Notes under the pieces: model-generated
Databases searched by the model: none
The model's input: the letters and a program-made list of their open reading frames with translations, nothing else
What the model was told of the DNA's origin: nothing
Shown here: positions 30,035-57,305 of the stretch, in pieces
Layout of the letters: the number at the start of each line of letters is the position of its first letter
How positions within the stretch are numbered: position 1 is the first letter of the stretch
Source: Alloyangia mangrovi
GTDB taxonomy: Bacteria > Pseudomonadota > Alphaproteobacteria > Rhodobacterales > Rhodobacteraceae
NCBI RefSeq assembly: GCF_002300555.2
Contig: NZ_NTHN02000028.1
Location: 1 to 64,000 of the forward strand
Direction: 5' to 3'
Length of the DNA: 64,000 nucleotides
Position numbers and translations under genes: made by a program

Positions 30035-30757
30035 CTACAGCCACCCCACCAGTACCGGTACCAGGAAGCTTGTCAGTACCGCGTTCAGCGCCATTCCGAT
30101 ACCGGCATAGGCGCCGGCGACAGGGTTCACCTGAAACGCGCGAGCCGTCCCGATGCCATGCGCAGCAACACCAACTGCAAAGCCGCGTGCGCGCCAGTCC
30201 CTGATGCCGAGTGCGTCCATCAGCGGCGTGATGGTGATCGCCCCAATGATCCCTGTCAGGATCACAAGCGTGGCTGTCAAAGTTGGCAATCCCCCAAGCG
30301 CTTCCGAAATCCCCAGTGCCACCGGGGCTGTTGTGGACTTGGGTGCGAGTGACAGGACAACCACATCCGGCAACCCCAGGAGCTTGGCGATCAGGATCGC
30401 CGAGGTGGCAGCGACAACAGACCCGACGAACAATGCGGCAAGGAGCGACGCTTTCGCGCGGCGTATGGTCTCCATATTGTCATTGAGCGGCAGGGCCAAG
30501 GCAACGGTCGCCGGTCCGAGGAGGAAGTGAATGAACTGCGCACCTTCGAAATAAGTCGCGTAATCTGTCCCGCTGAAGGACAGCACAGGTGCGATGAGCA
30601 GAACCGAAAGAAGAACCGGATTGGCCCAGGGCTTGCGGGCCACGCGCGCAGAGCACCAGTCTGCAAACGCGTATGCCGCCAATGTGGCGGTGAGCCAGAG
30701 CAATGGCCGAGCGCTGAGATAGCTCCAGATGTCGGTGATGTCGTTCAGGTTCTTCAT
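30035..30757 (-). CDS. lrgB: LrgB/CidB family membrane protein
   Basis: 240 residues with seven or eight transmembrane helices. The conserved core GLPDVVVLSLAPKSTTAPVA and the AVGVAAHGIGTARAFQ motif are the signature of LrgB/PLGG1-type transporters. In bacteria LrgAB-type proteins are linked to murein hydrolase control and, in Bacillus, to pyruvate transport; the plant homologue moves glycolate and glycerate. Start overlaps the LrgA stop by four bases (ATGA). Confidence 0.9.
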   Translation of the reverse strand: MKNLNDITDIWSYLSARPLLWLTATLAAYAFADWCSARVARKPWANPVLLSVLLIAPVLSFSGTDYATYFEGAQFIHFLLGPATVALALPLNDNMETIRRAKASLLAALFVGSVVAATSAILIAKLLGLPDVVVLSLAPKSTTAPVALGISEALGGLPTLTATLVILTGIIGAITITPLMDALGIRDWRARGFAVGVAAHGIGTARAFQVNPVAGAYAGIGMALNAVLTSFLVPVLVGWL

Positions 30758-31113
30758 TGGCCAAGCTGCCCCTGCAGCCGCTGAACGGCCAGGAAGGTTG
30801 CCACCGATGCCAATATCGCCAGGAGCGTGCTCGCAACCAAAGCCACCGAAATGGCAAACCACCCTGCGCTCAGAAGCTCGAGATTGGCCATGACGCCGAC
30901 ACCCGCCGGAACAAAGAGCAGTGAAAGCAGACCGAGGAGTGCTGTGATTGCAGGCCGCAAGCGTTCGACCATCTGCGGCCGCGCGCGGAAGAGAATGAAG
31001 AGGAATGCCATGCCGAACACGGGCCCCGGAACGGGGAGCGCAAAGCCACGCGCGATGGCTTCTCCAGCAAGCTGAAGGGTCAGGAGGAGCAGAAACGACC
31101 GGACAAAGATCAT
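30754..31113 (-). CDS. lrgA: LrgA/CidA family membrane protein
   Basis: 119 residues with four transmembrane helices. LrgA features include LQLAGEAIARGFALPVPGPV and FVPAGVGVMANLELL. Partner of the downstream LrgB. A Rho-independent terminator lies just upstream, so the pair probably has its own promoter in the roughly 30 bases between that stem and the start, where GGGAGGA serves as SD. Confidence 0.88.
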   Translation of the reverse strand: MIFVRSFLLLLTLQLAGEAIARGFALPVPGPVFGMAFLFILFRARPQMVERLRPAITALLGLLSLLFVPAGVGVMANLELLSAGWFAISVALVASTLLAILASVATFLAVQRLQGQLGQ

Positions 31114-31135
31114 GGGAGGAAGTGTCCTTTAACGA

Positions 31136-31169
31136 GAAAAAGCAGCCCGCCGGGAGGAGCGGGACTGCT
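31136..31169 (-). terminator. Rho-independent terminator of the DMFase-like operon (minus strand)
   Basis: Stem AGCAG-CCCGC / GCGGG-(A)-CTGCT with one bulged base and an eight-base loop. On the minus strand it is followed by five consecutive U residues (31136-31140 plus the last stem base). It lies 46 bases past the alpha/beta-hydrolase stop and separates that operon from LrgAB. Confidence 0.8.
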
Positions 31170-31214
31170 GAGATGTCTTATTGAAAGCGGCAGCTGCGCT
31201 GCGCCTGAGGCGGA

Positions 31215-31967
31215 CTAGTCGTCCAAAACCCAGTCCGCAATTTCGGCTGCGACTTCCACGTGGGAAGTGTCGTTCAGAAGATCATGGTAGGCGTCGGGAA
31301 AGACCTTCGAAGTTGCCGAGGGCAGGCGAGCCTCGCATCGAGAGATAACTTCCGCCGGGCACAGGAAGTCGTGGTCTCCCGCAACGAGCAAGACCGGAAC
31401 GTTAAGTTCTGACAAGCGTTCGCTAAGGCCATGCGACGGATCGAGCACCCGCATAGCGTGCGGGAACTCGGCGAGCGCGTCGAAGCCGAGCGGATCGTGC
31501 TCCAGCTCATCGAGGTAGAAAGGGTCTTTCGACATGATCGCTTCGGGCAAGCTTGCCTGTTGCGCCGGAGAGATGCCGTCCAGAGGCATGCCGCTGAGGA
31601 CAAGTTTCGTCACCTGCTCGGCATGATCAAGTGTGAGCGCAAGCGCGGTGATCGCCCCCATGGAGTGTCCAATGACGAAACAAGGTCGATTGGGCGCTTC
31701 ATCTCGGAGCTCTTCCAAGCAAAGCTTGGCATTCTCCACCAGATGCGCGAGTGCCTCCGGGTTTCCCCGCTCGCCATCCGATTGTCCATGGCCTATCGCA
31801 TCGGGAGCGAGCACCTCAATCCCGCGCGCGACCAGCGCGTTTGCGAACCTGTGGTAGTGCCCGGAATGCTCACCATAGCCATGAAGGAGCAGCGCGTGCG
31901 CCTTGGGCGCGCTTGCCTTCCAGTGCCGGAAAAAGATCTTGCGCGGCGAAACGGTCAGATAAGGCAT
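31215..31967 (-). CDS. Alpha/beta-hydrolase (monoacylglycerol lipase-like)
   Basis: 250 residues: HALLLHGYGEHSGHYHRFAN oxyanion region, nucleophile elbow VIGHSMGAIT (Ser), acid LLVAGDHDFLCPAE (Asp) and a late His in VFPDAYHDLLND. These are the hallmarks of the Hydrolase_4 group that hydrolyses esters of small or lipid alcohols. No signal peptide. It is last in the operon, eight bases after the mutarotase gene, so it probably processes the imported compound. Confidence 0.85.
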   Translation of the reverse strand: MPYLTVSPRKIFFRHWKASAPKAHALLLHGYGEHSGHYHRFANALVARGIEVLAPDAIGHGQSDGERGNPEALAHLVENAKLCLEELRDEAPNRPCFVIGHSMGAITALALTLDHAEQVTKLVLSGMPLDGISPAQQASLPEAIMSKDPFYLDELEHDPLGFDALAEFPHAMRVLDPSHGLSERLSELNVPVLLVAGDHDFLCPAEVISRCEARLPSATSKVFPDAYHDLLNDTSHVEVAAEIADWVLDD

Positions 31968-31974
31968 GCTGGCC

Positions 31975-32445
31975 TCAAATTCCGTTAATGATCATGTCGA
32001 TCGGGATATCCGCGCTGGGATATCCCCCGATCAAAATGACATTCGCGTGGACCCGGTAGTCCCCGGTCTGCACAAACGCCTTACAGCGATCCCGCATGTC
32101 GTAATAGTCCGGCATGTATTTCATTTCATGGACGCGGTCTTCTCCGAAAAGACCGACCAGCATGGCGAAGCCATCGGGATTGGCGCTGCGCATGTCTTCC
32201 GTGACGATACACGCCTCGATGTCGGCATTGTCGCAGATGACAGGCACGAGATCATCGAGCGAAGGCACACCGGTCACGACCTCGAGATTGATTTGCTCGA
32301 CGCCGGGGTCGAGCGGCCGCAGAGCCTTTGCGTGGCTCCCGCTTCCCGCATCGGCGACAAAGAGCATTTCACCGTGGCGAAGCTCTGCGAGGATTGCGGC
32401 GAGTCGCGGGTTCAACACGCGCGGCCGCTGATTCAAGGTTACCAT
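31975..32445 (-). CDS. RbsD/FucU family sugar mutarotase
   Basis: 156 residues of the RbsD/FucU fold: LRHGEMLFVADAGSGSHA, with the catalytic His of the family near the N-terminus, and the C-terminal VQTGDYRVHANVILIGGY, where Tyr/Asn residues contact the sugar. Members interconvert anomers or ring forms of ribose or fucose after uptake. Its presence between a ribose-type ABC importer and other catabolic genes suggests that the ligand is a reducing sugar or contains one. Two bases separate it from the DMFase-like stop. Confidence 0.88.
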   Translation of the reverse strand: MVTLNQRPRVLNPRLAAILAELRHGEMLFVADAGSGSHAKALRPLDPGVEQINLEVVTGVPSLDDLVPVICDNADIEACIVTEDMRSANPDGFAMLVGLFGEDRVHEMKYMPDYYDMRDRCKAFVQTGDYRVHANVILIGGYPSADIPIDMIINGI

Positions 32446-32447
32446 GA

Positions 32448-34506
32448 TTACTCCTTGGCTGATCGTTGTTCGCTGCCGCGGTTCTCTAGGAACCGGCGCA
32501 GGACATTCGTGCTGAGACGGGCGACGTCATTGTCGTAGTCATTGGTCCCCAGGCTCCCGGCCCAACAGATCGAGCCGGTCGAAAAGACCTCTCCTCCCCC
32601 TTCGTGGCGCACGAGGACGCAATCCGCGCGCACTGCGGGGTTGGTAGGTCCCGCTTGCCCGGGGCCAACTTCGGTAACGGCGTCCAGCGTCGGGAAGAAC
32701 AGGTCCTCGTGCCGCGAGGACATCAGGACAATGGTGCCATCGGGCGTTCCGCGCGCCGGGTCGGCGTGATCCATTTCGTCCCCGGCTGCACCCCCCAGAA
32801 GATAGCCATGAGCGCCGATCAACTCCCCCTCGATGCCCTCGAATGCCCAGGACGCTTCGGGGGCATAGCTCGCCTCGGTACGTTGGTAGCCCGACGCCCT
32901 TCCCCAGCCAGCGGCCGCCATGCCGATGCCGAACACCGGGTTCTGGTCGCGACCACGGTGCCGCCACGCGGCCCCCTGCTTGCCGGTCGTGGCTTGGTGA
33001 ACCTCCGCCGGATGCGACGTCCAGTTCCGTTGCGCCGCATAGCCTCGGCGCACTTCTATTGCGTCACGGCCCCCGTCCAGAAAATCCGTGACCCAAAAGA
33101 AGCCATTGGCCCCCATGTACATGAACCTGCCGCCGGCGTGGATGTAGCCTTCGATCGCGTCCAGGATTGCCTCTGTGGGATATTCTGGGTGCGACCCCGA
33201 AACGACGACATCGTAGTGCTTGAGCAGCTCCAGTCCCCGCTCATCGAGGTCCTGCTCGGTCGTCACGTCGAAACGGACGCCGGCTTTCTCGAGCCATCCG
33301 GTAATGAAGAAATCCGCCGAAAAGTGCCGGGGGCCGCTGGAGAGCCAGTTCCAGTGGTTGGGCTGCAGGTTCGTGAGCGGCCGAAGGCGCGACGCGTGCA
33401 TGACGCCGCTGCCGTCCGCATGGCGGTCATACAGCGATCTGCCGAGCCGCGGCTCGTCCTGAAGAAGCTCTTCCGCAGTGTCGAGGCGAATTGGATCGGC
33501 CTTTAGGCGCTGGTGTGTCTCACCCCGCTCCCCCTCCCAGAGATGCTCATTGGCATAGGCGAGATAGGTGTTGGTCGGCGCGACAAAGAGAACCCTCGTG
33601 GACGGCGTCGTGGGTCTTACGTAGAAGGGCACGAAGAAGGCATCGCCATCTTGTTCCAGCTTCACCGCATAGATTCCGCTGTCAGCGGGGGCTTCGATCG
33701 AGAAATCCGTTTCCCACCCCGCGTCATAGAGATCGTCCTCGTGCAGATGCACCGCGTTCCACTGGCCGGGATCATCGGTCCATCGAAGGGTCTGGCGATC
33801 CCAGTGCGGCCCGAGCACTGCACGCGCGGGGCGCTGATGCAGGACGCCGTGATTTTCCCGACCGGAGGTATCGACCGCGACGGCTCCCCCCCATGGCCTC
33901 GGAGAAGTCGAGATCGAAGAGCGGCGTGCCACCTACAGTGCAGCGGACCTCTGCGACCCGGCCATTCAGCGGCAGAAGGCGGTCTTCGCTTTGACCGATC
34001 AGCACTCGCGCGCCGGCGAGCGGGCCATTTAGCGCGGCCTCTACGAGCCTGCCGGCGAGCCCCGCCCGAACCGTCTGACCTTCGATTTGGAGACGCAGGT
34101 TGTGCCAGCGGCCAAGTGAAAGCGGGGCCGACACGGTCTCGCGGGTATCGCCCTGGCCCAGAACGAGCTGCCCCTCGACAAGATCAAGGCAGAGATCTCC
34201 AAGCTGCACAACGCGTTGCGGGGTGTCTGTCTTCGTTGGGCAGAGCGACAGGCTGATCTCTGTCCGCTCCGACCAGTCCTGACCCGCAACTTCGATTTCG
34301 ACGTATGAGCCCGGGCAAAGACCCTGATGTCTCGCCTGATGTACTGACCTGTCCCCGATCAGCTCTTCGCGCACTCGTAGGGCGGCGCCGTCCTGCAGGC
34401 CGTGGAGCCTGACCAAAGTCGCGGAGACTTCGCCGCGACCGGACATCTTGATTTCCAACGTCTCACCGGGATCGACGGTGAGCTTGTCGCTGTATGCGAG
34501 CAGCAT
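32448..34506 (-). CDS. N,N-dimethylformamidase large-subunit-like protein, +1 frameshift as read
   Basis: About 685 residues when one G is removed from the minus-strand G7 run near 33891-33897, which joins FSEAMGG to AVAVDTSGRENHG. The N-terminal half is beta-rich and LamG-like. The C-terminal half is the DMFase core with TNTYLAYANEHLWEGE, LGRSLYDRHADGSGV and SGSHPEYPTEAILDAIEGY. Paracoccus DMFase uses an iron held by two Tyr and one Glu, and Tyr317, Tyr359 and Glu441 here fall at about that spacing, with His439 adjacent. No small subunit gene is nearby. The likely reaction is hydrolysis of an amide-type C-N bond, substrate unknown. It sits between a ribose-type permease and a mutarotase gene. 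Confidence 0.78.
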
Positions 34507-34579: not shown

Positions 34580-35770
34580 TTAGCGCCGCCCGGCCGTCGT
34601 GCTGCGTGCGAGGGTCGCGTCTGCGAGGACGGCAAGCACCAGGACGCTCCCCTGCACCAGGAGGCGGGCTTCGGTGCTGGCGTTGATCAGGAACATGCCA
34701 TTGGCGATCGAGCCAATCACGAGCGCGCCAAGGAGCGCCGACCAGACATTTCCGCGCCCGCCAAACAGGCTGGTGCCCCCGATCACGGCGGCCGCGATCG
34801 ACTCCAGCAGCAGGGTTTCGTCAGCCGAAGCGGGCGATACACCCAGTACCCGAGCAGAGGCCACCATGCCGCCCACCGCCGTCAGCATGCCCAGCAAGGT
34901 GAATGCGCTGATCTTGACGAAGTTCACCGGGATCCCGGCGCGCCGTGTCGCCTCGCGGTTGCCGCCAATACCATAGAGCCAGGTGCCGAAGCGCGTCTGC
35001 GTGGTCAGGTAGGAGAAGGCGGTGAACAGGCCAACAAGAATCGCAAGCGGGACCGGAACTCCACGGTAGCTGTCAAAAATCCAAACGGTGAGGAGCGCGG
35101 CCGCGAGGATCGCGGCACCGACACCAAGCGCCTTGCCACCATTCGAAGGCAGACCATAAGCGAGGCGCTTGCGATGATCAGCGAGCCTGACGGCAATTAC
35201 GACGAGTCCGCCCAGCAGCGCGAGCCCGTAGCTCAGGACGCTGGGCAGCTTCCAGGAGAATACCGCCTGAACATCGGTGCCTGCCAGTGCCACCAAGCCA
35301 CTGCTGGTAGGCAGCAGGATGAGCAGCACGCCCTGCAGCGCAAGCGAGAAGCCGAGCGAGATGATAAAAGCAGGCGCGCCACTGAAGACCACCAGCGAGC
35401 CCTGCACCATACCCGTCAATCCGCCCGTGAGCAGGGCGCAGGCCAGCGCAATCGGGAACGGCCAGCCAAGGTTTGCAACCAGAACGCCATTGACACCCGC
35501 GCAGACAGCCGAGAGCGCGGCAACAGAGAGGTCGATCTCCGAAACGAGGAGCACCATGACAAGACCAAGTGCGACGATGCTAGTCGTCGTGATCTGGTCA
35601 GCGAGGTTGGTCATGTTCTGCGGGGTCAGGAACACCGGGGACAAACTTGCGAAAATTCCCCAGATGACGAGAAGCGACACGACAACAGGGACAACACGCC
35701 AGCGGGTGGACAGCGCATCGAGCAACTGCGCACTGACTGGACGAGAACTGCTTGAGACAGCCTGAGACAT
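34580..35770 (-). CDS. Ribose/xylose-type ABC transporter permease (RbsC/XylH family)
   Basis: 396 residues with ten or so transmembrane helices. LVSEIDLSVAALSAVCAGVNGV, GAPAFIISLGFSLALQGVLL and the GIGGNREATRRAGIPVNFVK cytoplasmic loop are typical of CUT2 permeases, and the size matches the longer XylH/FrcC branch. It works with the upstream ATPase and binding protein. Confidence 0.92.
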   Translation of the reverse strand: MSQAVSSSSRPVSAQLLDALSTRWRVVPVVVSLLVIWGIFASLSPVFLTPQNMTNLADQITTTSIVALGLVMVLLVSEIDLSVAALSAVCAGVNGVLVANLGWPFPIALACALLTGGLTGMVQGSLVVFSGAPAFIISLGFSLALQGVLLILLPTSSGLVALAGTDVQAVFSWKLPSVLSYGLALLGGLVVIAVRLADHRKRLAYGLPSNGGKALGVGAAILAAALLTVWIFDSYRGVPVPLAILVGLFTAFSYLTTQTRFGTWLYGIGGNREATRRAGIPVNFVKISAFTLLGMLTAVGGMVASARVLGVSPASADETLLLESIAAAVIGGTSLFGGRGNVWSALLGALVIGSIANGMFLINASTEARLLVQGSVLVLAVLADATLARSTTAGRR

Positions 35771-35793: not shown

Positions 35794-36556
35794 TTACGCT
35801 GCGACGCCCGTGATAGCGGCAACGAGACTGCTCCGGTTCCATTCGCTGATCGGCTTGTCGGCAACCTTCTCGCCCAGGCGGAGCACGACGACGCGATCGG
35901 CGACGTTGAGCACGTCCGCCAGATCGTGGGAGACAAGGATGATGCCGAGCCCCTGCCCCCGCAGTCGTTCAATCAGAGCGGAGACCTCGGCGCGCTGCGC
36001 CACGCCCAGAGCGGCGGTCGGCTCGTCGAGCAGGATGACCTTAGGTCGGGACATCACCGCGCGCGCGATGGCCACCGACTGTCTCTGCCCGCCCGACAGG
36101 CTTCCGACCGGCGTGGAATAGTCCCTGATCTTGACGTTGAGCCGCTCGAGCTCCTCATGGGCCCGTTTTTCCATCAGGGGCCGCGACAGGCGGAAAAAGC
36201 TGCGCCACCCCCCCCGAAAGTTCACGGCCGAGGAAGAGGTTCTGGACCGTGTCCAGGTTGTCGCAGAGAGCGAGGTCCTGGTAGACGGTCTGAATGCCCA
36301 GATCGTTGGCATCTTGCGGGGCGCTCATGGTCGCCGGCTTACCGTCAAACAGGATTTGTCCCTCATCGGCGGCAATGATGCCGCTGATGATCTTAATCAT
36401 GGTGCTCTTGCCTGCGCCGTTGTCCCCTGCAAGCGCCACAACCTCCCCCGGGGCGACGTCGAAGGACACCCCCGAAAGGGCCGTGACGCCGCCGTAGTGC
36501 TTGCCGATGTCCTTGAGAGAGAGGATCGGCATTCTCGAGACGCGGTGGTCGTTCAT
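35794..36556 (-). CDS. Sugar ABC transporter ATP-binding protein (CUT2, FrcA-like), +1 frameshift as read
   Basis: A single-ATPase CUT2 subunit of about 253 residues after removal of one G from the minus-strand G8 run at 36208-36215 (GRELSGG joins WRSFFRLSR). Walker A GDNGAGKST, Q-loop IQTVYQDLALCD, signature LSGGQRQSVAIARA, Walker B VILLDEPTAALG and switch His LVSHDLADVL are all present. RbsA proteins carry two such domains; this short form matches FrcA-like subunits. The start is ambiguous among ATGs at 36574, 36556 and 36532. 36556 is chosen because GGGAG lies upstream, although spacing is long. Confidence 0.82.
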
Positions 36557-36577
36557 GTCAATGCGATCTCCCATCGG

Positions 36578-37672
36578 TCAGTTCGCCTTGCAGAGATCGG
36601 TATCAACCGCGATGCCCCCACAGAGCTGCTCCCGCGTGTAGAGACCCGCGTCGAGGACTGCCTCCTGGATTGTCTCGGGCAGGATGACGCTGTTGACAGC
36701 GTGGACCTCGGGAAGCCCGCCGGGATAATCGTTGTCATAGGACGTCACGACCATGTCGCCCGGGATTGTCTGGCCCTGCGCCGCCATGATCGACAGCTCG
36801 ACAGCAAGGCGGTTCATTCCGACGTAGTCCACCGTCATGTCCATCTCCTGCTGGCCCGCGGCGACACGACGGACCCCGGCGATCGACGCATCGTATCCAC
36901 CGAACAGCTTGACCGAACCGATTGCGGCGGCTTCGACAGCTGCCAGCGCGGCACCCCCGGTATCGTCATTCATCGCAAAGATGCCGTCGACCTGCCCGTC
37001 GGTCTTCGCGATGCATTGGGACATCGCGGTCTGGGCCCGCGGCGGCAGCCAAAGCAGAGCATCTGCCTCGCAGACGACTTCAAGCTTGCCGGCTTCGACC
37101 AGCGGGTCGAGGATCGGATCAATGCCCTTCACCTGGTCGGTGTAGAACGGGAACTTGGGATCACCGTAGATCTTGGCCAACCGGAACGGCTCGCCGGTCT
37201 CCGAGAAATGTTGTTCGATGACTTCGGCTGCCTTTTGCGCCTGCTTCTCGCCGATCTCGATGAACGGCGCTGTCAGATACGCAAAGGCAGGGCCACCATG
37301 ACATGCGTGCGCCATGCAGATCACCGGAATGCCTGCGTCAGCCGCGAGCGCCAGCGATCCCGCCGCTTGCTTCGGATCGACGGTGATCAGCACAATTGCC
37401 TTCGCACCATTCGCGATCGCCGCCTGAACTTGAGAGGTCTGGCGCTGGACATTGTTCTCCGAGTTGAGGACTTCGACCTGGGCATTTGGCATCAGCTCTG
37501 CCGCCGCCTTTTCGAAGGCCGGGCGATCGAACTGTTCGAACCTGACCGTCTCCACATCCGGCAGAATGTAGTAGAACTTGCCCGTTACATCTGCGTCTTG
37601 CGCGGATGCGGTGACGACCTGCAGGCACAGCGCGGCTGCGCTCACACTGAGGGTGTGAGATTTCCGGATCAT
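36578..37672 (-). CDS. Sugar-binding protein of the CUT2 ABC importer (RbsB-like)
   Basis: 364 residues. Signal peptide MIRKSHTLSVSAAALCLQVV ending near ASAQ. Type-1 periplasmic fold with NAQVEVLNSENNVQRQTSQ, GAKAIVLITVDPKQAAGSL, VDGIFAMNDDTGGAALAAVE and VKLFGGYDASIAG, as in ribose/fucose binding proteins. The ATG at 37672 has a GGAGAGG SD and is preferred to one at 37684. First gene of the operon, behind two LacI boxes. Confidence 0.9.
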   Translation of the reverse strand: MIRKSHTLSVSAAALCLQVVTASAQDADVTGKFYYILPDVETVRFEQFDRPAFEKAAAELMPNAQVEVLNSENNVQRQTSQVQAAIANGAKAIVLITVDPKQAAGSLALAADAGIPVICMAHACHGGPAFAYLTAPFIEIGEKQAQKAAEVIEQHFSETGEPFRLAKIYGDPKFPFYTDQVKGIDPILDPLVEAGKLEVVCEADALLWLPPRAQTAMSQCIAKTDGQVDGIFAMNDDTGGAALAAVEAAAIGSVKLFGGYDASIAGVRRVAAGQQEMDMTVDYVGMNRLAVELSIMAAQGQTIPGDMVVTSYDNDYPGGLPEVHAVNSVILPETIQEAVLDAGLYTREQLCGGIAVDTDLCKAN

Positions 37673-37721
37673 GAACCTCTCCATGTTGGGGTGGCGCCTT
37701 TTGAGTAAAGCGACATTCTTA

Positions 37722-37819
37722 GTAAACGTTTTCCTACGCTACCTTAGACGCCCAACCTGTCAATGATTCATCTCCGAAAATCTCATAAAAACTGCCTTAC
37801 GTAAGTTGTAAGCGTTTTC
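37722..37819. promoter_or_regulatory. Two LacI-type boxes upstream of the CUT2/DMFase-like operon
   Basis: GTAAACGTTTTC at 37722-37733 is the exact reverse complement of GAAAACGTTTAC. GTAAGCGTTTTC at 37808-37819 differs at one base. They lie 50 and 136 bases before the binding-protein start, a spacing that would permit repression by looping, and match boxes near the LacI gene. Confidence 0.75.
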
Positions 37820-39219: not shown

Positions 39220-39288
39220 CTTGTCTGGTCTCTTCCAACTGGGAAGGCGCCCCCGGAAGGGAGCGCCTGATCAGGTTTTCGCGATGGA

Positions 39289-46462: not shown

Positions 46463-46487
46463 TTGACAGGTATGAGAAAACGTTTAC
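46463..46487 (+). promoter_or_regulatory. Promoter element with LacI box before the proline-racemase-family gene
   Basis: TTGACA (46463-46468), a consensus -35, is followed by a LacI box GAAAACGTTTAC at 46476-46487. The box occupies the -10/spacer region, so binding would block RNA polymerase. The gene start is 33 bases further. Confidence 0.7.
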
Positions 46488-49766: not shown

Positions 49767-50579
49767 ATGCCGTTTCATACTGCAGATGATGGAACCCGGA
49801 TTCATTTCCGCGACATCGGGGAGGGTCCCGCAGTGGTCCTCATACCCGGTCTTGGAGGGGATGGCGCGTTCTGGAACGGGGTCGTTTCCTTGCTGCAAGG
49901 GCGCTACCGGCTGATCGTGACTGACCATCGCGGCGCCGGGCAAAGCGATCGGCCCGACGGGCCCTACTCCATTCCCCGCATCGCCAAGGATGTTCTCGGG
50001 ATCCTTGATGATCTCGGGATCCATCGGGCAACCTTCGTCGGACACTCGACGGGCGGCATGATCGTGCAGACGATCGCCACCTCCTGCCCACGTCGCGCCT
50101 CCGCGATCATCCTGTCAGGCACCTGGGAACGCAGGGATCTGCGCTTTCGCAGGATGTTCCAGGCCCGCATCGCGCTGCTCGAGCATGCTGGTGCCGTGGA
50201 TTACCACCGGCTCACGCAGGCCCTCGGCTATGACAACGACTGGCTCGAAGCGCATGCCGAGGAGATGGCGCAGGAGTTGGACCGTGCCGAGGAACGCCTC
50301 GCCCCAAAGGCCGTACAACTCGCGCGCATGCAGATGCTCCTGGAGCATGATTGCCACGACAGGTTGCCCGAAATCGACTGCCCCACACTCGTGCTCGGCG
50401 CCGGCGACGACGCCCTAATCCCGCTCGTTCACGCCGAGAGGCTTGCAGCCTTGATCCCCAACGCGCGGCTCCGTGCGCTGTCGGGCGGGCACTTCTACCC
50501 GCGCGCCTATCCCGAGCAGTTCGCGACCCACGTCAGTTCATTCATAGAAGAGGCGCTTCCATGCACCACCCAAGCATAG
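49767..50579 (+). CDS. Alpha/beta-hydrolase (3-oxoadipate enol-lactonase/haloperoxidase-like)
   Basis: 270 residues. VVLIPGLGGDGAFWNGV oxyanion region, DHRGAGQSDRP strand, nucleophile elbow FVGHSTGGMI (Ser), acid in LVLGAGDDALIPL and late His in LSGGHFYPRAYPE. The overall pattern is that of enol-lactone hydrolases and related lactonases, which would fit opening of a lactone formed by the GMC enzyme. Two-base gap from the cupin gene; its end overlaps the aspartate dehydrogenase start by 19 bases. Confidence 0.82.
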   Translation: MPFHTADDGTRIHFRDIGEGPAVVLIPGLGGDGAFWNGVVSLLQGRYRLIVTDHRGAGQSDRPDGPYSIPRIAKDVLGILDDLGIHRATFVGHSTGGMIVQTIATSCPRRASAIILSGTWERRDLRFRRMFQARIALLEHAGAVDYHRLTQALGYDNDWLEAHAEEMAQELDRAEERLAPKAVQLARMQMLLEHDCHDRLPEIDCPTLVLGAGDDALIPLVHAERLAALIPNARLRALSGGHFYPRAYPEQFATHVSSFIEEALPCTTQA

Positions 50580-51355
50580 CCGCCATCGGCTTCGGCGCCA
50601 TGGCACGCAGCCTACAGAAATCTCTGGAGCAACATGGCGACGTCACCCTGAGCGCCTGCCTCGTGCCGGAAGCCTTTCGCGCGTCTGTCCCTGACACGAT
50701 CACGGCCTACACGAGCGTCGAGGATCTCATCGCGGCCAAACCCGATCTTGTCGTGGAATGTGCGACGCACGACGCTGTGCGCGAGAGCGTCCCTCCGATC
50801 CTTCGCGCGGGTATCGATGTCATCATCGTGTCGATCGGCGCTTTGGCCGACCGCGACCTGCGGGAAACCCTTCAGGACGCGGCTCATTCCGGAGGATCGC
50901 GGGTTTCGGTCGTATCGGGTGCCATCGGCGGCCTTGACGTGCTGAGAGCCGGCGCGCTGGCCGGGCTTGAAGAGGTGACATACGTCGGACGCAAGCCCCC
51001 GCGCGCCTGGGCCGGTACACCAGCCGAAACGCTTCTCAACCTGAGCGCTTTGACCGAGCCAACAGAATTCTACGAAGGTTCGGCAACCCAGGCCGCGCAC
51101 GACTACCCGAAGAACACCAATGTGACCGCCGCCGTGGCGCTCGCAGGCGTGGGCTTCGACGATACCCGCGTCAAGCTGATCGCCGACCCCACCGCTCAAA
51201 CGAACTCTCATGAGCTCGAGGCGCGTGGCGCGTTCGGACGGTTCCGGATCGTTCTTGAAAACAATGCTCTACCCGAAAACCCGAAGACCTCGTGGCTTGC
51301 AGCACTCAGTGTCGAGCAAGCAGTCCTTCGGCACTTCAACAGCATGGAGGTCTAA
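50561..51355 (+). CDS. L-aspartate dehydrogenase (NadX-like)
   Basis: 264 residues. Rossmann start IAAIGFGAMARSLQKSLEQH, conserved SVVSGAIGGLDVLRAGALAG, VGRKPPRAW, and the catalytic TNSHELEARGAFGRF with the family's active-site His. It oxidatively deaminates aspartate to iminosuccinate/oxaloacetate or works in reverse. Position in a LacI-associated catabolic operon, not a NAD biosynthesis cluster, argues for catabolic use, consistent with aspartate as an intermediate. SD AGAGG. Confidence 0.88.
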   Translation: MHHPSIAAIGFGAMARSLQKSLEQHGDVTLSACLVPEAFRASVPDTITAYTSVEDLIAAKPDLVVECATHDAVRESVPPILRAGIDVIIVSIGALADRDLRETLQDAAHSGGSRVSVVSGAIGGLDVLRAGALAGLEEVTYVGRKPPRAWAGTPAETLLNLSALTEPTEFYEGSATQAAHDYPKNTNVTAAVALAGVGFDDTRVKLIADPTAQTNSHELEARGAFGRFRIVLENNALPENPKTSWLAALSVEQAVLRHFNSMEV

Positions 51356-51358
51356 ATC

Positions 51359-52120
51359 ATGGACATGAATCTGGCCAACAAGGTCGCCATCATCACCGGT
51401 GCCGGTGCGGGCATCGGCGCCGCAACCGCGAAGCTCTTCGCGGCCGAAGGCGCTCAGGTCGTGGTCGCAGACTATGACGCAACAAACGCCAAAGACGTCG
51501 CCGACGAAATTGGAAATTCCGCCATCGCCATCGAGGTCGATGTTCGCGACAGCGCCTCGGTGAAGGCGATGATCGACGAGACCATCAGCGCCTTCGGTGG
51601 GATCGACATCCTCGTCAATAATGCCGGTCGCGGGTCGCTGGGAACCGTCGAGACCTGCGACGAGGATCAGTGGAACGACATCATGGCGGTGAACGTCAAT
51701 GGTGTTTACCTCTGCTCGAAGCACGCGGTTCCGGAAATGCGCAAGCGTGGCGGTGGTGTCATCGTCAACACCGCTTCGAACATCGCCATGGCCATGGCGA
51801 TCAAGGACCGCGCTGCATATGTCGCCGCGAAGGGTGCCACTGCATCCCTGACCCGCGCCATGGCGCTCGATTTCGCCGCCGACAATATCCGCGTGAACTC
51901 TGTCGCGCCCGGCGTGATCTGGTCAAACTACTACAACAAGATGCTTGGTGAAGTCGCGGATCCCGACGCCTTCAAGGCGGGACTTCGTGCCCGTGCGCCC
52001 TCCAATGCGTGGGGACAGCCCGAAGATATCGCCAATGCGATCATCTATCTCGCCTCCGACCGGTCTTCCTTCGCGGTGGGCACCATGCTGACGGTCGACG
52101 GCGGCGCATCGATCTGGTGA
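51359..52120 (+). CDS. Short-chain dehydrogenase/reductase
   Basis: 253 residues: NAD-binding TGAGAGIGAATAKLF, NNAGRGSLGT, catalytic Ser-Tyr-Lys in TASNIAMAMAIKDRAAYVAAK, and the closing ASDRSSFAVGTMLTVDGGAS. A classical SDR that oxidises or reduces a hydroxyl group of a small sugar-like substrate. Three bases after the aspartate dehydrogenase gene. Confidence 0.93.
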   Translation: MDMNLANKVAIITGAGAGIGAATAKLFAAEGAQVVVADYDATNAKDVADEIGNSAIAIEVDVRDSASVKAMIDETISAFGGIDILVNNAGRGSLGTVETCDEDQWNDIMAVNVNGVYLCSKHAVPEMRKRGGGVIVNTASNIAMAMAIKDRAAYVAAKGATASLTRAMALDFAADNIRVNSVAPGVIWSNYYNKMLGEVADPDAFKAGLRARAPSNAWGQPEDIANAIIYLASDRSSFAVGTMLTVDGGASIW

Positions 52121-52125
52121 GCCAC

Positions 52126-52443
52126 ATGATCCTCGAGGAACGAGACTACCGCCTGAAGCCGGGAAAGGCCCCGACCTTCCTCCAGATTTACGAGAAGTAC
52201 GGGCTGCCTGTGCAACGGCGTCACCTGGGAGAGCCATACGGCTTCTTTACCAGCGAGATTGGCGAACTCAATCATGTGGTCGCCATGTGGCGCTACAACG
52301 ATCTGAACGACCGCGCCGAGCGACGCGCCGCTATGTTGCTGGACCCGGATTGGCCCGGATACCTCTCGAAGATTGATGGGCTCATCGACGTGCAGAATAT
52401 CCGCATTCTCACCCCAGCGGGCTTCTTCTTCCCGGCCCGTTGA
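52126..52443 (+). CDS. NIPSNAP-family protein
   Basis: 105 residues of the ferredoxin-like NIPSNAP fold: ILEERDYRLKPGKAPTFLQI, GEPYGFFTSEIGELNHVVAM and MWRYNDLNDRAERRAAM. These small alpha/beta-barrel proteins are commonly found next to dehydrogenases and are of uncertain role. Start chosen at the ATG five bases after the SDR stop; a GTG overlapping that stop is possible. A Rho-independent terminator lies just after the gene. Confidence 0.82.
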   Translation: MILEERDYRLKPGKAPTFLQIYEKYGLPVQRRHLGEPYGFFTSEIGELNHVVAMWRYNDLNDRAERRAAMLLDPDWPGYLSKIDGLIDVQNIRILTPAGFFFPAR

Positions 52444-52448
52444 CCCCT

Positions 52449-52486
52449 GGGCTGGCCGGCTCCCTCAAATTCGGCCAGCCCCTTTT
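52449..52486 (+). terminator. Rho-independent terminator after the seven-gene operon
   Basis: Perfect 10-bp stem GGGCTGGCCG / CGGCCAGCCC with a 13-base loop, followed by CTTTT. It lies six bases after the NIPSNAP stop and would end the operon that starts with the racemase-family gene. Confidence 0.85.
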
Positions 52487-52493
52487 CCATGGA

Positions 52494-53420
52494 TTGGTCT
52501 TCAGCTTGGAGAACAAATTCAATAGGCACTCGAGGAGCGTCGGCAACCGATCGCGGCATGCATCGCACCGTGTGCCGATCGTTGGATTGATCTTGACCGG
52601 CCCACCGGAGCGCAGGATCGCCGACCCCGAATGGGGTGAGTTCCTCTGCGGTGCATCAGACGCATGTTTACATCTCGGGTTTCAGCTCCGGCTGGTCGGC
52701 GCCGCAGGAAAGGCCCCGGATCAGCTCAGCCTGCGGCTGCTGGAGCGCGACGCGTGCGACGGCTACATCCTTTTCGGGGGGACGACTTGTAACGCGCCGA
52801 CGCTCGAAGCCTGGCCTGAAGATTTCTCAACCCCGGTCGTGCTGTTTGGAGTCCCGCCAGGGAGGACTTCCAAACTACAGGCGCTCCTTGAGATTGATCA
52901 CGAAGCGGCATTGCGGCAGGCCTTCGACTATCTGGACGCGCTCGGCCATCACAGGTTGAGCGCATTCTTCTCGGGCAGAAGCGCTGAAGCATTCAGAGAT
53001 CATAGTCCCTCTGACCTTGACGTAGAGGTTCACGCCGATGTGCTGACGGAACGTCAGGCTTTTCGGCGCGCCATGGTGCTCTTGGAGACTAGCCCACCCC
53101 CGACCGCGTTTCTCACGAGTTCTCCAATTCTTGCCATCGGTATCCGCCGGGCACTCGAAGGCTGCGGCCTCACCTTGGGGCGTGACGTGTCCATCATCAC
53201 CTTCGACCCTTCAATCAGCATGCTTGGCGGCACCGATATGGCACCGGCTTTCACCTGCATTCGTTACTCCGCCCAGGAAGCCGGAAGCCGGAGCGTTGAA
53301 CTTTTTGCAGCCCTCTTGTCGAGCCGCCACGAAGACACGCTGTTCGACACGATGACCCCGAAACTCGTCATCGGACCAAGCACGGGCCCCCTACTCGGAA
53401 AGAAAAGTCATGAGCATTGA
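52494..53420 (+). CDS. LacI-like effector-domain protein lacking its DNA-binding domain
   Basis: About 308 residues from a TTG after the terminator; the start is uncertain. From RVPIVGLILTGPPERRIADP onwards it is a LacI/PBP1 effector domain (DGYILFGGTTCNAPTL, IDHEAALRQAFDYLDALGHH, AFLTSSPILAIGIRRALEGC, DVSIITFDPSISML). Only the hinge-like NRHSRSVG precedes it; the usual N-terminal HTH of 50-60 residues is absent in every frame examined. It may be a truncated regulator or an HTH-less sensor. Its end overlaps the HAD gene start by 11 bases. Confidence 0.6.
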   Translation: MVFSLENKFNRHSRSVGNRSRHASHRVPIVGLILTGPPERRIADPEWGEFLCGASDACLHLGFQLRLVGAAGKAPDQLSLRLLERDACDGYILFGGTTCNAPTLEAWPEDFSTPVVLFGVPPGRTSKLQALLEIDHEAALRQAFDYLDALGHHRLSAFFSGRSAEAFRDHSPSDLDVEVHADVLTERQAFRRAMVLLETSPPPTAFLTSSPILAIGIRRALEGCGLTLGRDVSIITFDPSISMLGGTDMAPAFTCIRYSAQEAGSRSVELFAALLSSRHEDTLFDTMTPKLVIGPSTGPLLGKKSHEH

Positions 53421-54249
53421 ACGGCTGAACCTCCTTAGCGATACCCACCTCCTACGCCAGCCCGCGGCCGTCTTGTGCGACGTTGACAGAACCCTTCTCC
53501 GGCACGACCACAGCCTGCCGGAAGACGTCGCAACCGCAGCCCGAGACTTGCCGTTTCCCCTTATTCTGGCGTCCGCAAGGTCGCCCATCGGCCTACACCA
53601 TGTCCATGACCGCACCGGCGCGGAAGATTTGGCGGTTTGCTTTAACGGCGCCTGGATTGGAAACCCGCAGACCAGGCAACCCCTCTACGCACTGCCCCTG
53701 CCTCGAGATGCGGCTGAATTTGCCTTCTCGCTCATCCTTGAGCTTGGCGGGGCCCCAGCCTGGTTTGGCATCGACCATGCGGTTGCATTGACGACGCAGG
53801 CTGACTGCGTCGGGCAAAGGATCAAGGTGACCGGAGGTCCGCTTCGTCTGGTTGACCACGCGTCGGAAATTTCTGGTACACCGTTCAAACTTCTCGCGAC
53901 GGTCGATCCCGACAGAATTGCCGAGATTTCGGCAGCGCTCGGCAGAACTCTAAGGGACGTCGCCTATGTGGCTCAATCGGGCCCGGGGCTGATCGAGATC
54001 GTTCATCCGGAAGTTTCGAAAGGTGTCGCGCTCTACAAGGTCGCTGAAATCCTTGGGGTGCCGCCCGAACGGCTTGCAGCCGCGGGTGACTCCAGCAACG
54101 ACATCGAAATGCTCAGGGCCGCCGGCCTGAGCATCGTTCCGGACAATGCCTCTAGGGAGGTCAAGAAGTTCGCTGACGTTGTTGTTCCCCATTGCGACGA
54201 AGGCGGCATCGCGCATGGCTTTCGCTGGCTGGCAACTCTGCCTGAGTGA
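53410..54249 (+). CDS. HAD-superfamily phosphatase (Cof/type IIB)
   Basis: 279 residues. Motif I is AVLCDVDRTLLRHDHSL (Asp24 and Asp26; the usual Gly after the second Asp is Arg), motif III Lys lies in HPEVSKGVALYK, and motif IV is AAGDSSNDIEML. The C2 cap region supplies specificity for sugar phosphates. A phosphatase for a sugar phosphate is plausible. Co-transcribed with the HTH-less regulator gene. Confidence 0.82.
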   Translation: MSIERLNLLSDTHLLRQPAAVLCDVDRTLLRHDHSLPEDVATAARDLPFPLILASARSPIGLHHVHDRTGAEDLAVCFNGAWIGNPQTRQPLYALPLPRDAAEFAFSLILELGGAPAWFGIDHAVALTTQADCVGQRIKVTGGPLRLVDHASEISGTPFKLLATVDPDRIAEISAALGRTLRDVAYVAQSGPGLIEIVHPEVSKGVALYKVAEILGVPPERLAAAGDSSNDIEMLRAAGLSIVPDNASREVKKFADVVVPHCDEGGIAHGFRWLATLPE

Positions 54250-54299
54250 CCTCCACTTGAGTGGCTTGGCAAAGATGTAGGCGAGATACATTTTCCCAT

Positions 54300-54320: not shown

Positions 54321-54351
54321 GTAGGAAAGTTATCTGAAAATGGAGTCTGCC

Positions 54352-55345
54352 ATGAATATCGACAAGGCCATGGAAGCATTCAAAGGGCCGAAGGCCGTCA
54401 TCCTGCCAGACCAAGGGCAAAGCTTCACCTACGGCGAGAAAAGAATTCCGGCGCTCCTCAAGCTCGCCCCGGGTCAGTACCCGCACTACAAGTTCAGTGC
54501 CGTCCGCTTTGATCTCGCGCCGGGACAGAACCTCGACCTGATGGCCACGCGACTGGCAGGGCGCATGCTGTACTGTCTGGAAGGAAACGGCGCCATCTAT
54601 CTGAACGGCAAGAAGTTCCCGTTCTTCGAAGAATGCTTCGCGCATGTCGGGGAAGGCCATTACTCGGAAGTGAAGAACACCGGCAGCACGCCACTTCAAG
54701 TTTTCAGCTTCGTGTTCGGCCCGTCCCTCGAGGGGGGGGGCGGGGATTGCCGATGGCGCTGAACCGCATGTCAGCATCAACCCGGCAACGAAGGCGTCGC
54801 TTGGTCTCCTCACAAGGGAAGAAGCGGCTGCCCTTAGTGACGACGCTCGCGGCGTTCTCAGCCACCAACTTCCCGATACTGGCCCGTCGTTCTGGCAAGC
54901 GCGACCGAGCGCCGGCTGGGTGGAGGTCAAGCTCGCGCCGTTCACCCACGATGTGCATCACTACGCCCTCCTGATGCAGACCCTGTATCCTGGTGCCGCC
55001 GTTCGAGAGCATGCCCATAATCAGCTCAACGAGTTCTTCATCATCACGAGGGGCACAGCACGTGCATCTCTCGATGGCGCAGAGGCCACCTGTCCCAAGG
55101 GCTCGGTCATCATCATCGGCCGGAACGTGTGGCATTGGTGGGGAAATCCGGGTGAGGTCAACGCCCAGAATTTCGCGATCATTGACCCGCCGGGTGTCGA
55201 GGGTGCGCTCGCCCTGACCGGACGAGAGCGTCGCCACGATGAGCCGTGGCCCGATGATATCGAACGTAGCCCCGAAACCGGACGAATCCTCCACGAGCGC
55301 TACGGTTTCGTGATTAAAGACGGTTCTGCGGACGCCACGGCTTGA
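54352..55345 (+). CDS. Bicupin protein, +1 frameshift as read
   Basis: About 330 residues when one G is removed from the G9 run at 54732-54740 (SLEGG joins AGIADGAEPHV). Two cupin barrels: the first with YKFSAVRFDLAPGQNLDLM and LYCLEGNGAIYLNGKKFPFF, the second with AVREHAHNQLNEFFIITRG and KGSVIIIGRNVWHWWGNPG (His/Glu ligands). Resembles bicupins of the ureidoglycine aminohydrolase type in layout, but no substrate is assigned. The start at 54352 has a GGAG SD. Overlaps the MarR start by four bases. Confidence 0.72.
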
Positions 55346-55932
55346 AAACCGAGCGGCCCGGCGACAACCTCCCCGGGCCGCACATGAAATGGGTGGCGCC
55401 CGCCAGCGACCAACGTTTCAAATATCAGGGCAGAGATTTGACCCAGCGCGACAAGCCGATCGAGGGGGCCTACAGGCCGATCATCTACAGCCTTCTGCAG
55501 GTTGCCCAAAAGATGCTGCAAACACGCGAGATCTACGCAAACATCGTAGGCGTGACGCCGCCGCAGTTCAGCATCCTGACCGCTATCGGAGAGAGCCCCC
55601 GGACATCCGTTGGCGACCTTGCGATGCGCCTCAATGTCACCGGTCCCTTTGTGACCAACGAAGTGCGAAAGCTCGTCACCGAAGGCCTGGTGCAAAAGAC
55701 GAGTTCCGACGCAGACAAACGTCGCGCGGAACTTGTGCTGACCGCGGAAGGTACCGCGCGACTGCACCGCGCCGACGTTGAACGTCACACCGCTAACGCC
55801 ACCATCTTCGAAGCCTTCACCTCGACCGATCTTGCCGAATTGGGACAAGACCTTGATCATCTCAGGGAAGGACTGGACAAGGCACTTTACCAACTCGACG
55901 CTCCTACCGGGACCAAACACGGACAAGACTGA
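55342..55932 (+). CDS. MarR-family transcriptional regulator
   Basis: 196 residues from a TTG overlapping the bicupin stop (TTGA). Winged helix: YANIVGVTPPQFSILTAIGE, NVTGPFVTNEVRKLVTEGLV and KTSSDADKRRAELVLTAEG, with the wing. A C-terminal dimerisation helix follows. Likely autoregulates via the palindrome upstream of the bicupin. An alternative ATG at 55384 would drop 14 residues. Confidence 0.88.
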   Translation: MKTERPGDNLPGPHMKWVAPASDQRFKYQGRDLTQRDKPIEGAYRPIIYSLLQVAQKMLQTREIYANIVGVTPPQFSILTAIGESPRTSVGDLAMRLNVTGPFVTNEVRKLVTEGLVQKTSSDADKRRAELVLTAEGTARLHRADVERHTANATIFEAFTSTDLAELGQDLDHLREGLDKALYQLDAPTGTKHGQD

Positions 55933-55985
55933 GAAAATTTTAGGCTAAGCACGCTGCAATCAAGAATTTTAGCATATGATTGCGA

Positions 55986-55997
55986 GAAAACGTTTAC
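55986..55997. promoter_or_regulatory. LacI box upstream of the MFS transporter gene
   Basis: Exact GAAAACGTTTAC in the gap between the MarR and MFS genes, 109 bases before the MFS start. Identical to the boxes near the LacI gene 10 kb away, which places the transporter in that regulon. Confidence 0.75.
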
Positions 55998-56105
55998 TCT
56001 GTCGCGAATCTTTCATATCCAATACGCCAATCGCCCCCACCCAACACGGCAGCCTGTCGTCTGCGTGAGAAGAGGCATCCGGACATTTTGACATGGAGGA
56101 CGCCC

Positions 56106-57305
56106 TTGTCCCATTCAGCCAGCATCCCCGATATCCGCATTCCGAGAATCGCGACCACAGCCGTGTTCTTCATCAATGGCATGGCATTGGCGCTGTTCTT
56201 CGCGAACATCTCCTTGATCAAGGATGCGCTCCAGCTCAGCGACAGCAGCCTTGGCAGTGCCCTCGGCCTTCAAGGCCTGGGGACGGTGGTTTTCGTGGTG
56301 ATTGGCAGCCTCGTCGCAATTCGGCTCGGGACCCGAGCCACGATGCTGATCGGCGCATGCTTTATGAGCGCGGCGCTGACGGCAATCGGAAGTGCCGGAA
56401 GCTTCTACCCCTTCCTACTCGCGGTGCTCGCGCTGGGTGCGGCGAACAGCTTCGTCGATGTCTCAATGAACACGCATGCCTCCCTCGTAGAACGCGAGTA
56501 CAGCCGCGAAATCATGCCGACCTTCCACGCCGCGTATAACTTCGGCGGCTTCGCAGGTGCGGCCATCGCTTCGGTGCTGATCCGCATGACCGAGACGGCG
56601 ATGACTTCGCTTCTGCTGGCTGGCGTTGCAATGGTTGCAATTCTTGTCGTCGGCTGGACGTTTCTGGGTGATCTGCGCCCATCGAAATCCGTGTCTGAGG
56701 AGCGTCCCCTGTTCCCCTCTCTGCGTAAGATCGGTGGGAACTCCACCCTTCTCCTTCTCGGCAGCCTGATCGCGGTCGCGCTCTTCGTCGAAAATGCAAT
56801 GAATGGTTGGAGCGGCGTTTATCTCAACAATGTTGTCGGTCAGGATGCTGCCCGTGCGGCGGATGCCTTCGCCGCCTTCCAGATCGCCCTGGCGATTGGG
56901 CGTCTCGGAGGCAGTTGGGCCCTCGCACGGCTGGGCGCCCGCCGCGTGATCATTTTCGGCGGTCTTCTCGCGAGTGCAGGTGTTGTTCTGGTTGTGACGG
57001 TGATCTCTCACTGGGCAGCGCTCATCGGCTTCGCGGCGATTGGCCTCGGTCTCGCAAACTGCACGCCGATGTTCTTTACCCGCGCTGCGGCGGCCATCCC
57101 ATCAGCCCCTGCAGTCGGGATCGCCTTGGCGAACGTCATCGGATATCTTGGATACATTGCCGGACCGGTCGTTCTTGGGCTCCTCTCCGAAGTCAGCGAC
57201 CTTAAAACCGCCTTCCTCGCTGTTCTCGCGGCGATGCTCCTCATTGCGCTGGGTAGCAAGAGTGTCATGAAGATCCGCTGCTCGGCAGACCTAGCTGCGA
57301 ACTGA
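56106..57305 (+). CDS. Major facilitator superfamily transporter (YbjJ-like)
   Basis: 399 residues with about 12 transmembrane helices, opening with TTAVFFINGMALALFFANIS and including GSLVAIRLGTRATMLIGACF and FHAAYNFGGFAGAAIASVLI. The TTG start at 56106 has a strong SD (TGGAGGA). A longer reading from 55980 would include the LacI box and is rejected. Likely an exporter or importer of the region's substrate or a pathway intermediate. Confidence 0.82.
   Translation: MSHSASIPDIRIPRIATTAVFFINGMALALFFANISLIKDALQLSDSSLGSALGLQGLGTVVFVVIGSLVAIRLGTRATMLIGACFMSAALTAIGSAGSFYPFLLAVLALGAANSFVDVSMNTHASLVEREYSREIMPTFHAAYNFGGFAGAAIASVLIRMTETAMTSLLLAGVAMVAILVVGWTFLGDLRPSKSVSEERPLFPSLRKIGGNSTLLLLGSLIAVALFVENAMNGWSGVYLNNVVGQDAARAADAFAAFQIALAIGRLGGSWALARLGARRVIIFGGLLASAGVVLVVTVISHWAALIGFAAIGLGLANCTPMFFTRAAAAIPSAPAVGIALANVIGYLGYIAGPVVLGLLSEVSDLKTAFLAVLAAMLLIALGSKSVMKIRCSADLAAN

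Follow-up and report, generated by a model that had tools for sequence, protein, structure and literature searches.

What does a LacI-type regulator control when sugar importers and amino-acid enzymes stand together around it? This question is raised by a 64,000-nt stretch of the 5.53-Mb genome of Alloyangia mangrovi, hereafter the window, in which a LacI-family gene (45367–46410, plus strand; PF00356 and sensor domains) stands between two runs of catabolic genes. Leftward from it lie a CUT1 importer, a betaine aldehyde dehydrogenase (BADH)-like aldehyde dehydrogenase (ALDH), an aspartase-type lyase (AspA), a CUT2 importer, an N,N-dimethylformamidase (DMFase)-like protein, an RbsD/FucU-type mutarotase and an alpha/beta hydrolase. 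Rightward lie a proline-racemase-family enzyme (ProRac), a GMC oxidoreductase, a cupin, an alpha/beta hydrolase, an aspartate dehydrogenase (AspDH), an SDR oxidoreductase, a NIPSNAP-family protein, a LacI-like sensor, a HAD protein, a bicupin, a MarR-family regulator and an MFS transporter. Families were called by NCBIfam and Pfam scans of the region proteins, and these bear out the gene contents given in a preliminary description of the same DNA; of the extent it proposed (30035–57305), the bulk of the genes stands, but the first, an LrgB-like gene (30035–30862), need not belong. By our reading, with a probability of roughly 50%, the region is a regulon through which LacI controls the breakdown of a sugar-like, hydroxylated amino alcohol. 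Its gene families, their order, the box that accompanies LacI, the association of importer with GMC and the catalytic residues are conserved in other genomes.

With AspDH as the query against plasmids, clusters were found in Paracoccus versutus, Shinella zoogloeoides and Rhizobium 11515TR, and on all three plasmids the order ALDH-CUT1 / LacI / ProRac-GMC-cupin-hydrolase-AspDH-SDR-NIPSNAP is the same. This order is also present, with CUT1, in seven further genome loci, some of which are near relatives of the three plasmid clusters; CUT1-ALDH-GMC thus recurs in 10 loci; within the core run, GMC follows ProRac and precedes cupin. A broader sample came from an alignment of four ProRac sequences searched against GTDB species genomes, which gave 90 relatives, the best 80 of which were kept. 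These loci were split into 42 with ProRac at least 62% identical and 38 below, a cut chosen after a gap between 63% and 59% had been seen, and partners were counted within the fetched flanks of up to 10 kb, which are shorter in the distant-ProRac group. At least three of five partners (cupin, hydrolase, AspDH, SDR, NIPSNAP) occurred in 31 of 42 close-ProRac loci versus none of 38 distant ones. Taken singly, the counts were 36/42 versus 0/38 for cupin, 32/42 versus 0/38 for hydrolase, 31/42 versus 0/38 for AspDH, 38/42 versus 7/38 for SDR, 23/42 versus 0/38 for NIPSNAP and 24/42 versus 0/38 for LacI. Among loci with flanks of at least 5 kb on both sides (38 versus 21), cupin was present in 33/38 versus 0/21, hydrolase in 30/38 versus 0/21, AspDH in 29/38 versus 0/21 and SDR in 35/38 versus 4/21.

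The genes around LacI also share a putative LacI-type box, GAAAACGTTTAC. The genome has four exact copies of it, every one in the window, and none of its reversed control. At up to one mismatch the whole genome holds eight matches, five of them in the window, and the reversed control also has eight, so that on the scale of the genome a clear excess over background is limited to the exact copies. Within the window, up to two mismatches give 15 matches (both strands, palindromic sites counted twice) versus 1.56 expected and a largest shuffle value of 5. The exact copies lie upstream of the CUT2 binding protein (37722–37733, minus strand), at 45071–45082 (plus), upstream of ProRac (46476–46487, plus) and between the MarR and MFS genes (55986–55997, plus), where P. 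versutus has a box at the matching place. With one further copy at one mismatch (37808–37819, minus) and one at two mismatches (45085), the six copies in four intergenic regions of the preliminary description are recovered; another two-mismatch match, at 49694, falls within the cupin gene.

The box was then surveyed in 46 core-type loci, namely the 42 close-ProRac loci, the three plasmid clusters and a Leisingera locus. In 14 of these loci LacI reaches at least 45% identity, a cut chosen after the data had been seen, and every one of the 14 has a box with at most one mismatch in the 150 bp upstream of ProRac; none of the 32 others has one there, and the background is 74 in 9200 random 150-bp segments from the same 46 loci. 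All 10 CUT1 loci also have a box ahead of the gene for the CUT1 binding protein (gene coordinates checked in three, same offset in seven). Chance as the source of the boxes is rejected, given the exact copies confined to the window, the empty control and the contrast upstream of ProRac. The LacI protein has the LacI helix-turn-helix domain and a palindromic box stands at the target promoters, so that the boxes are predicted to be operators bound by this LacI; the proposal of one LacI regulon holds up in that regulator and box are conserved together in those 14 loci, operator function being a prediction.

The core loci differ in their importers. Among the 46 loci, 14 have a sugar/polyol-type importer (10 CUT1, four MFS), 23 an amino-acid-type importer (14 Liv, eight polar-amino-acid, one ProW) and nine are unclassed. 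GMC is present in all 14 sugar/polyol-type loci and in none of the 23 amino-acid-type ones (P = 1.6e-10, with no correction for descent), and ALDH of at least 60% identity follows the same division (14 of 14 sugar-type loci; none above 41% in amino-acid-type loci). On the ProRac tree the importer type switches seven times, and GMC goes along in five of five independent pairs on supported branches. The swap is visible even between near-sister Pseudomonas loci, one with MFS, GMC and ALDH (L063), the other with an amino-acid substrate-binding protein and no GMC (L072). Conversely, a D-amino-acid dehydrogenase is found in 17 of 23 amino-acid-type loci versus none of 14 sugar-type loci; the same 17 also hold a Cys/Cys ProRac paralogue, and many amino-acid-type loci have DHDPS-family genes. 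Given this swap, it is simplest to suppose that GMC and ALDH would make, from an imported alcohol, the amino acid that other species import directly. This yields a testable substrate hypothesis: an alcohol in one lineage, the corresponding acid in the other.

A separate observation concerns the Liv-type loci, all 14 of which (for example L040:7317–9098) encode a protein of 594 aa whose C-terminal domain is of the B12-binding type. At the limits used, its N-terminal part matched no Pfam or NCBIfam family and no PDB sequence, and a structural model of medium confidence (mean pLDDT 61) had methylmalonyl-CoA and glutamate mutases as its best full-length folds, though at low TM-scores of about 0.2–0.46. 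The amino-acid version of the pathway may include, in this protein, a B12 mutase of a new family.

The window's GMC (47558–49220, plus strand) has as its nearest solved structures choline dehydrogenase and then a chloramphenicol-inactivating oxidoreductase, both of which act on amino alcohols. The ALDH (39289–40773, minus; family scan) is nearest to BADH, and the pair therefore invites comparison with choline/betaine-type routes, in which GMC and ALDH would oxidise a quaternary or N-methyl amino alcohol, here to the betaine of a proline-like acid. One locus (L046) does couple the core with a ProW/ChoW-type importer, and hydroxyproline betaine feeds the same enzyme family according to eLife 03275. 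Yet no demethylase (Rieske, P450 or sarcosine-type) was present among the region proteins scanned, and P450, ferredoxin and formaldehyde genes were seen solely near a Rhizobium leguminosarum variant of the cluster; we regard a betaine route as improbable.

For the amino-alcohol regulon we propose instead the following steps. The CUT1 importer, probably also the MFS and CUT2 importers, would take up the compound; the GMC and ALDH would convert a CH2OH beside the nitrogen into COOH by oxidation, so that a proline-like or beta-hydroxy amino acid results; and ProRac would work at the alpha carbon of that amino acid, by 2-epimerisation or beta-elimination. The SDR, alpha/beta hydrolase and cupin would carry out later dehydrogenation and hydrolysis, after which AspDH, in some lineages together with aspartase, would release the nitrogen at the level of aspartate to give oxaloacetate or fumarate. 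We infer this substrate class and order of reactions, like the activities of all the enzymes of the region, from sequence. The genes concerned are the CUT1 ATPase (40800–41870), MalG-like permease (41882–42724) and binding protein (43715–45025; 72–80% identical in the 10 other loci), all minus strand and called by family scan; a second CUT1 permease (42739–43665, minus), called solely by tblastn (73–80% to the same position in three orthologous clusters); ProRac (46520–47542; PF05544); the cupin (49217–49765; Pfam); the RutD/enol-lactonase/esterase-like alpha/beta hydrolase (49767–50579); AspDH (50561–51355); the SDR (51359–52120; NF004791, 353 bits against a cut-off of 312); the NIPSNAP-family protein (52126–52443; PF07978); and the MFS transporter (56106–57305; family scan, 66% in Paracoccus), from ProRac onwards all on the plus strand.

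ProRac bears a Ser91/Cys257 dyad in the window, and the main copy is Ser/Cys in all 46 core loci. In eLife 03275, epimerase dyads are Cys/Cys or Ser/Cys and dehydratase dyads Ser/Thr or Cys/Thr; Ser/Cys is there the mark of a family of 4-hydroxyproline epimerases, and Ser/Thr that of a family of 3-hydroxyproline dehydratases. From this dyad and the nearest sequences, a proline-like or beta-hydroxy amino acid is the likely substrate. A simple hydroxyproline cluster was considered and rejected, as neither DAO nor DHDPS was found among the region proteins scanned.

AspDH reaches the NCBIfam equivalog NF009827 (265 bits against a cut-off of 226) and also exceeds the NF009828 cut-off. Its His217 is kept in eight of eight aligned sequences and aligns with the His of solved AspDHs, which we take to be their catalytic residue. 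The aspartase-type lyase (37830–39220, minus strand) reaches the NCBIfam subfamily NF008909 (594 bits; cut-off 510) and in PDB comparison closely resembles known aspartases; against the equivalog TIGR00839 it scores 533 bits (cut-off 681), with its first ~50 residues lost to a frame shift. A longer paralogue in the window (17165–18616), 54% identical to the regulon copy, scores 527 bits against the same cut-off.

The preliminary description had proposed an Amadori-type or N-substituted aspartate adduct; on that reading the lyase would split an N-C bond to fumarate and the DMFase-like protein would cleave an amide. An AspA-type lyase and AspDH do share one regulon, the iron site of the DMFase-like protein is intact, and three other genomes have an amidohydrolase at the equivalent CUT2 position (see below). 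The expected co-occurrence of AspA, ALDH and CUT1 was likewise found elsewhere, in six of 10 CUT1 loci (L032, L034, L047, L048, L049, L051). However, in the fetched stretches AspA is missing from the other four CUT1 loci and from all 23 amino-acid-importer loci, which argues that it is not the key step, and it is close to known aspartases. Moreover, Amadori and fructosyl-amino-acid catabolism is defined by a kinase and deglycase, or by an amadoriase, and no fructosamine kinase, deglycase or amadoriase was found among the region proteins scanned. We therefore hold an adduct of this sort to be quite unlikely: a nitrogen-containing, sugar-like compound still fits, while the comparative data point to an amino alcohol converted to a proline-like amino acid. 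The nearest AspA relatives, examined in seven genomes, are not accompanied by this set's ProRac, ALDH or CUT1 binding protein (one stretch, L140, is 5.9 kb long); in one stretch (L143) genes for an ATPase and a permease of the CUT2 type lie close by, as does one for an AspDH of 32% identity.

Several observations weigh against the amino-alcohol reading. Fewer than three of the five core partners were found in 11 of 42 close-ProRac loci, and the 62% ProRac and 45% LacI cuts are post hoc. ProRac is nearest in sequence to Ser/Thr 3-hydroxyproline dehydratase, yet its dyad is the epimerase-type Ser/Cys; it misses all NCBIfam cut-offs (435 against 550 bits for t3HypD, 275 against 376 for 4HypE), and the window's copy forms a long branch on the tree. 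GMC, ALDH, SDR and hydrolase are broad families, and the lack of DHDPS and DAO genes among the scanned proteins counts here too. As for the swap, the tree test on supported branches gives P = 0.0625 (sign test), the pairs being too few for 0.05; importer classes are family calls, those for the MFS of L064 and L078 resting on 39–55% identity to the window's unspecific MFS; five of 37 classed loci (L040, L043, L046, L061, L065) supplied queries and hence include self-matches; two of the nine unclassed loci (L075, L118) have GMC; and AspDH of the Liv-type loci is only 35–44% identical. In R. leguminosarum the CUT1-ALDH-AspDH block has no adjoining ProRac, although in strain GLR17 a 61% ProRac lies ~33 kb off on the same plasmid, and in L144 AspDH, hydrolase and cupin occur without ProRac in the stretch; ProRac is thus not indispensable. 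Finally, L075 has seven boxes and no LacI in its stretch, L074 and L112 (LacI 42–43% identical) carry an exact box, but away from the ProRac upstream region, and one-mismatch box matches fall inside genes in the Paracoccus loci.

The left end of the region is less widely shared. It comprises the CUT2 binding protein (36578–37684; XylF/ChvE-like), ATPase (35794–36575; family scan and tblastn to neighbours) and permease (34580–35770; family scan), the DMFase-like iron amide hydrolase (32448–34506) and the RbsD/FucU-type mutarotase (31975–32445), which scores 62.9 bits for PF05025 (cut-off 25) and misses the D-ribose pyranase equivalog cut-off, all on the minus strand. The C-terminal piece of the DMFase-like protein scores 274 bits for PF20254 (cut-off 27); the N-terminal piece on its own had no family match. 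For the Paracoccus DMFase, PMC7686228 describes a 2-Tyr-1-Glu iron site with His, Asn and Glu (Y399, Y440, E521, H519, N547, E657), and all six of these Fe-ligand or catalytic residues are identical in our alignment. The nearest solved structure is N-acetyl-(R)-beta-phenylalanine acylase; this N-acyl amino acid acylase suggests that the enzyme would free an amine from an N-acylated form. We take the DMFase-like/RbsD/CUT2 set to be a local addition to the regulon.

Co-conservation of this set, which the preliminary description proposed to test, was not borne out. Of 18 other genomes in which DMFase was matched, 14 supplied 15 stretches of 12–20 kb with a relative of it (the remaining four had weaker matches, and nearly all of 85 plasmid records lay outside this survey); the set was found in none of these stretches, nor was there a DMFase match in the fetched stretches of the 46 core loci. 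Three other genomes do have a related CUT2 cassette (binding protein 42–44% identical) with a PF01979 metal amidohydrolase in place of the DMFase-like gene, which supports C-N bond hydrolysis at this position. The Paracoccus amidohydrolase has relatives of only 43–44% elsewhere in the A. mangrovi genome (four full-length matches), consistent with, though no proof of, its replacement by the DMFase-like gene. These three cassettes have no box nearby at up to two mismatches, and a LysR-type gene stands beside them; the window's CUT2-DMFase block carries the boxes at 37722 and 37808.

A rival reading is that LacI governs two or more unrelated cassettes, an ordinary sugar or polyol route (CUT1, CUT2, GMC, ALDH, RbsD) and an amino-acid route (ProRac, AspDH, AspA), under shared control because their nutrients are met together, as in plant exudates. 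Composite LacI regulons do exist, the CUT2/DMFase-like/RbsD genes were not co-conserved with the rest in either survey, and the R. leguminosarum variant keeps CUT1-ALDH-AspDH apart from ProRac. On the other hand, 10 other loci have GMC, ALDH and CUT1 beside the ProRac-AspDH core in an unchanged order, GMC lies within the core run itself, and importer type and GMC switch jointly on the tree, so that we consider separate routes unlikely, if less so than an adduct or a betaine.

The boldest candidates for the amino alcohol are iminosugars, that is, polyhydroxylated pyrrolidines or related plant amino alditols, an identification we put forward as a doubtful possibility. After uptake by the sugar-type importers, GMC and ALDH would turn a ring CH2OH into a carboxylate, and the resulting hydroxylated proline would enter the shared amino-acid core through ProRac. 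A Leisingera plasmid (L118) carries ALDH-GMC-ProRac-ALDH-DHDPS, a gene set that would make sense as a route from an alcohol through hydroxylated proline to 2-oxoglutarate; such a pathway would end there in Leisingera and at aspartate, oxaloacetate or fumarate in the window. If true, this would be a breakdown route for glycosidase inhibitors of plant and pharmaceutical interest.

Scattered Alphaproteobacteria share the regulator, the operator-type box and the enzymes; Paraburkholderia, Caballeronia, Pseudomonas and Pantoea also have the core, there without the box. Among 147 other sampled relatives (19 in the window's genus), the best CUT1 binding protein was 28% identical and the best ProRac 53%, with an AspDH of 58% in one. 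Four copies of the set, or of part of it, are on plasmids, and this carriage together with the sparse distribution among relatives suggests horizontal transfer. Since the set recurs across scattered lineages, partly on plasmids, its nutrient is probably common. The variants have features of their own. In R. leguminosarum-group plasmids (L030, L033, L035) CUT1-ALDH-AspDH is accompanied by ETF genes and GMC, in L030 and L033 also by ETF-QO, a bicupin-type cupin and a CoA transferase, and P450/ferredoxin or formaldehyde genes are nearby. The same-genus stretch L144 encodes P5C-reductase-like, FMO, AspDH, hydrolase, cupin, DAO, GntR, 3HCDH and NIPSNAP proteins.

To the left of the mutarotase lies an alpha/beta hydrolase (31215–31967, minus strand; Hydrolase_4, S33; Pfam PF12146). 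On the right, between NIPSNAP and MFS and all on the plus strand, lie a LacI-like ligand sensor in which the LacI DNA-binding domain was not matched (52440–53420; family scan), a HAD-IIB phosphatase (53410–54249; family scan), the bicupin (54340–55345; C-terminal part 76% identical in Paracoccus) and the MarR-family regulator (55342–55932; family scan). Five genes contain six frame shifts: the DMFase-like gene (C run, 33886), CUT2 ATPase (C run, 36208), AspA (T run, 39055), GMC (47571 and 47974) and bicupin (G run, 54732). Because all six lie in homopolymer runs of at least 7, they are most likely sequencing error in this assembly; true gene decay is rejected on the same grounds and by the single open frames of DMFase, AspA, GMC and bicupin in relatives. 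Elsewhere in the window are a further CUT1 importer adjoining a histidinol-dehydrogenase-family gene (7829–13452) and, at 57648–60785, genes for a GntR regulator, for a dehydratase-like member of the enolase superfamily that stays under its curated cut-offs, and for a protein whose likeness to TTT-type binding proteins was judged by eye, with no family match. An Rfam scan of the window gave no matches at gathering thresholds.

How, then, does this regulon compare with known systems? It resembles choline/betaine oxidation (BetA GMC, BetB BADH) in its pair of GMC dehydrogenase and BADH-like ALDH, but both fall below curated cut-offs (GMC scanned without its N-terminal part), and whereas choline clusters use BetI and betaine transporters, the window has sugar-type importers and LacI. 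Nitrogen release by AspDH and aspartase is represented at NCBIfam level (AspDH equivalog, aspartase subfamily); we know of no other LacI regulon in which the two occur together. An AspDH operon of P. aeruginosa, near PA3505, is a further lead for comparison. With the N,N-dimethylformamidase/N-acetyl-(R)-beta-phenylalanine acylase family it shares PF20254 and all six residues described in PMC7686228, yet the window protein is at most 43% identical to any of the matches listed and its neighbours are RbsD and a CUT2 importer. Clusters for trans-4- and trans-3-hydroxy-L-proline comprise, in eLife 03275, 4HypE or t3HypD, DAO, a DHDPS-family deaminase and KGSA dehydrogenase; the likeness lies in the proline-racemase-family enzyme and in the amino-acid-importer relatives, which carry DAO and often DHDPS-family genes, and the difference in the window's GMC, AspDH, SDR, hydrolase, cupin, NIPSNAP, CUT1 and LacI, with no DAO or DHDPS found. 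Among the matches listed from open-licence full-text literature, no description of this gene set, or of an iminosugar or calystegine catabolic cluster, was found. The regulon is real and conserved, and the class of its substrate can be tested, although in general terms systems of this kind are familiar.

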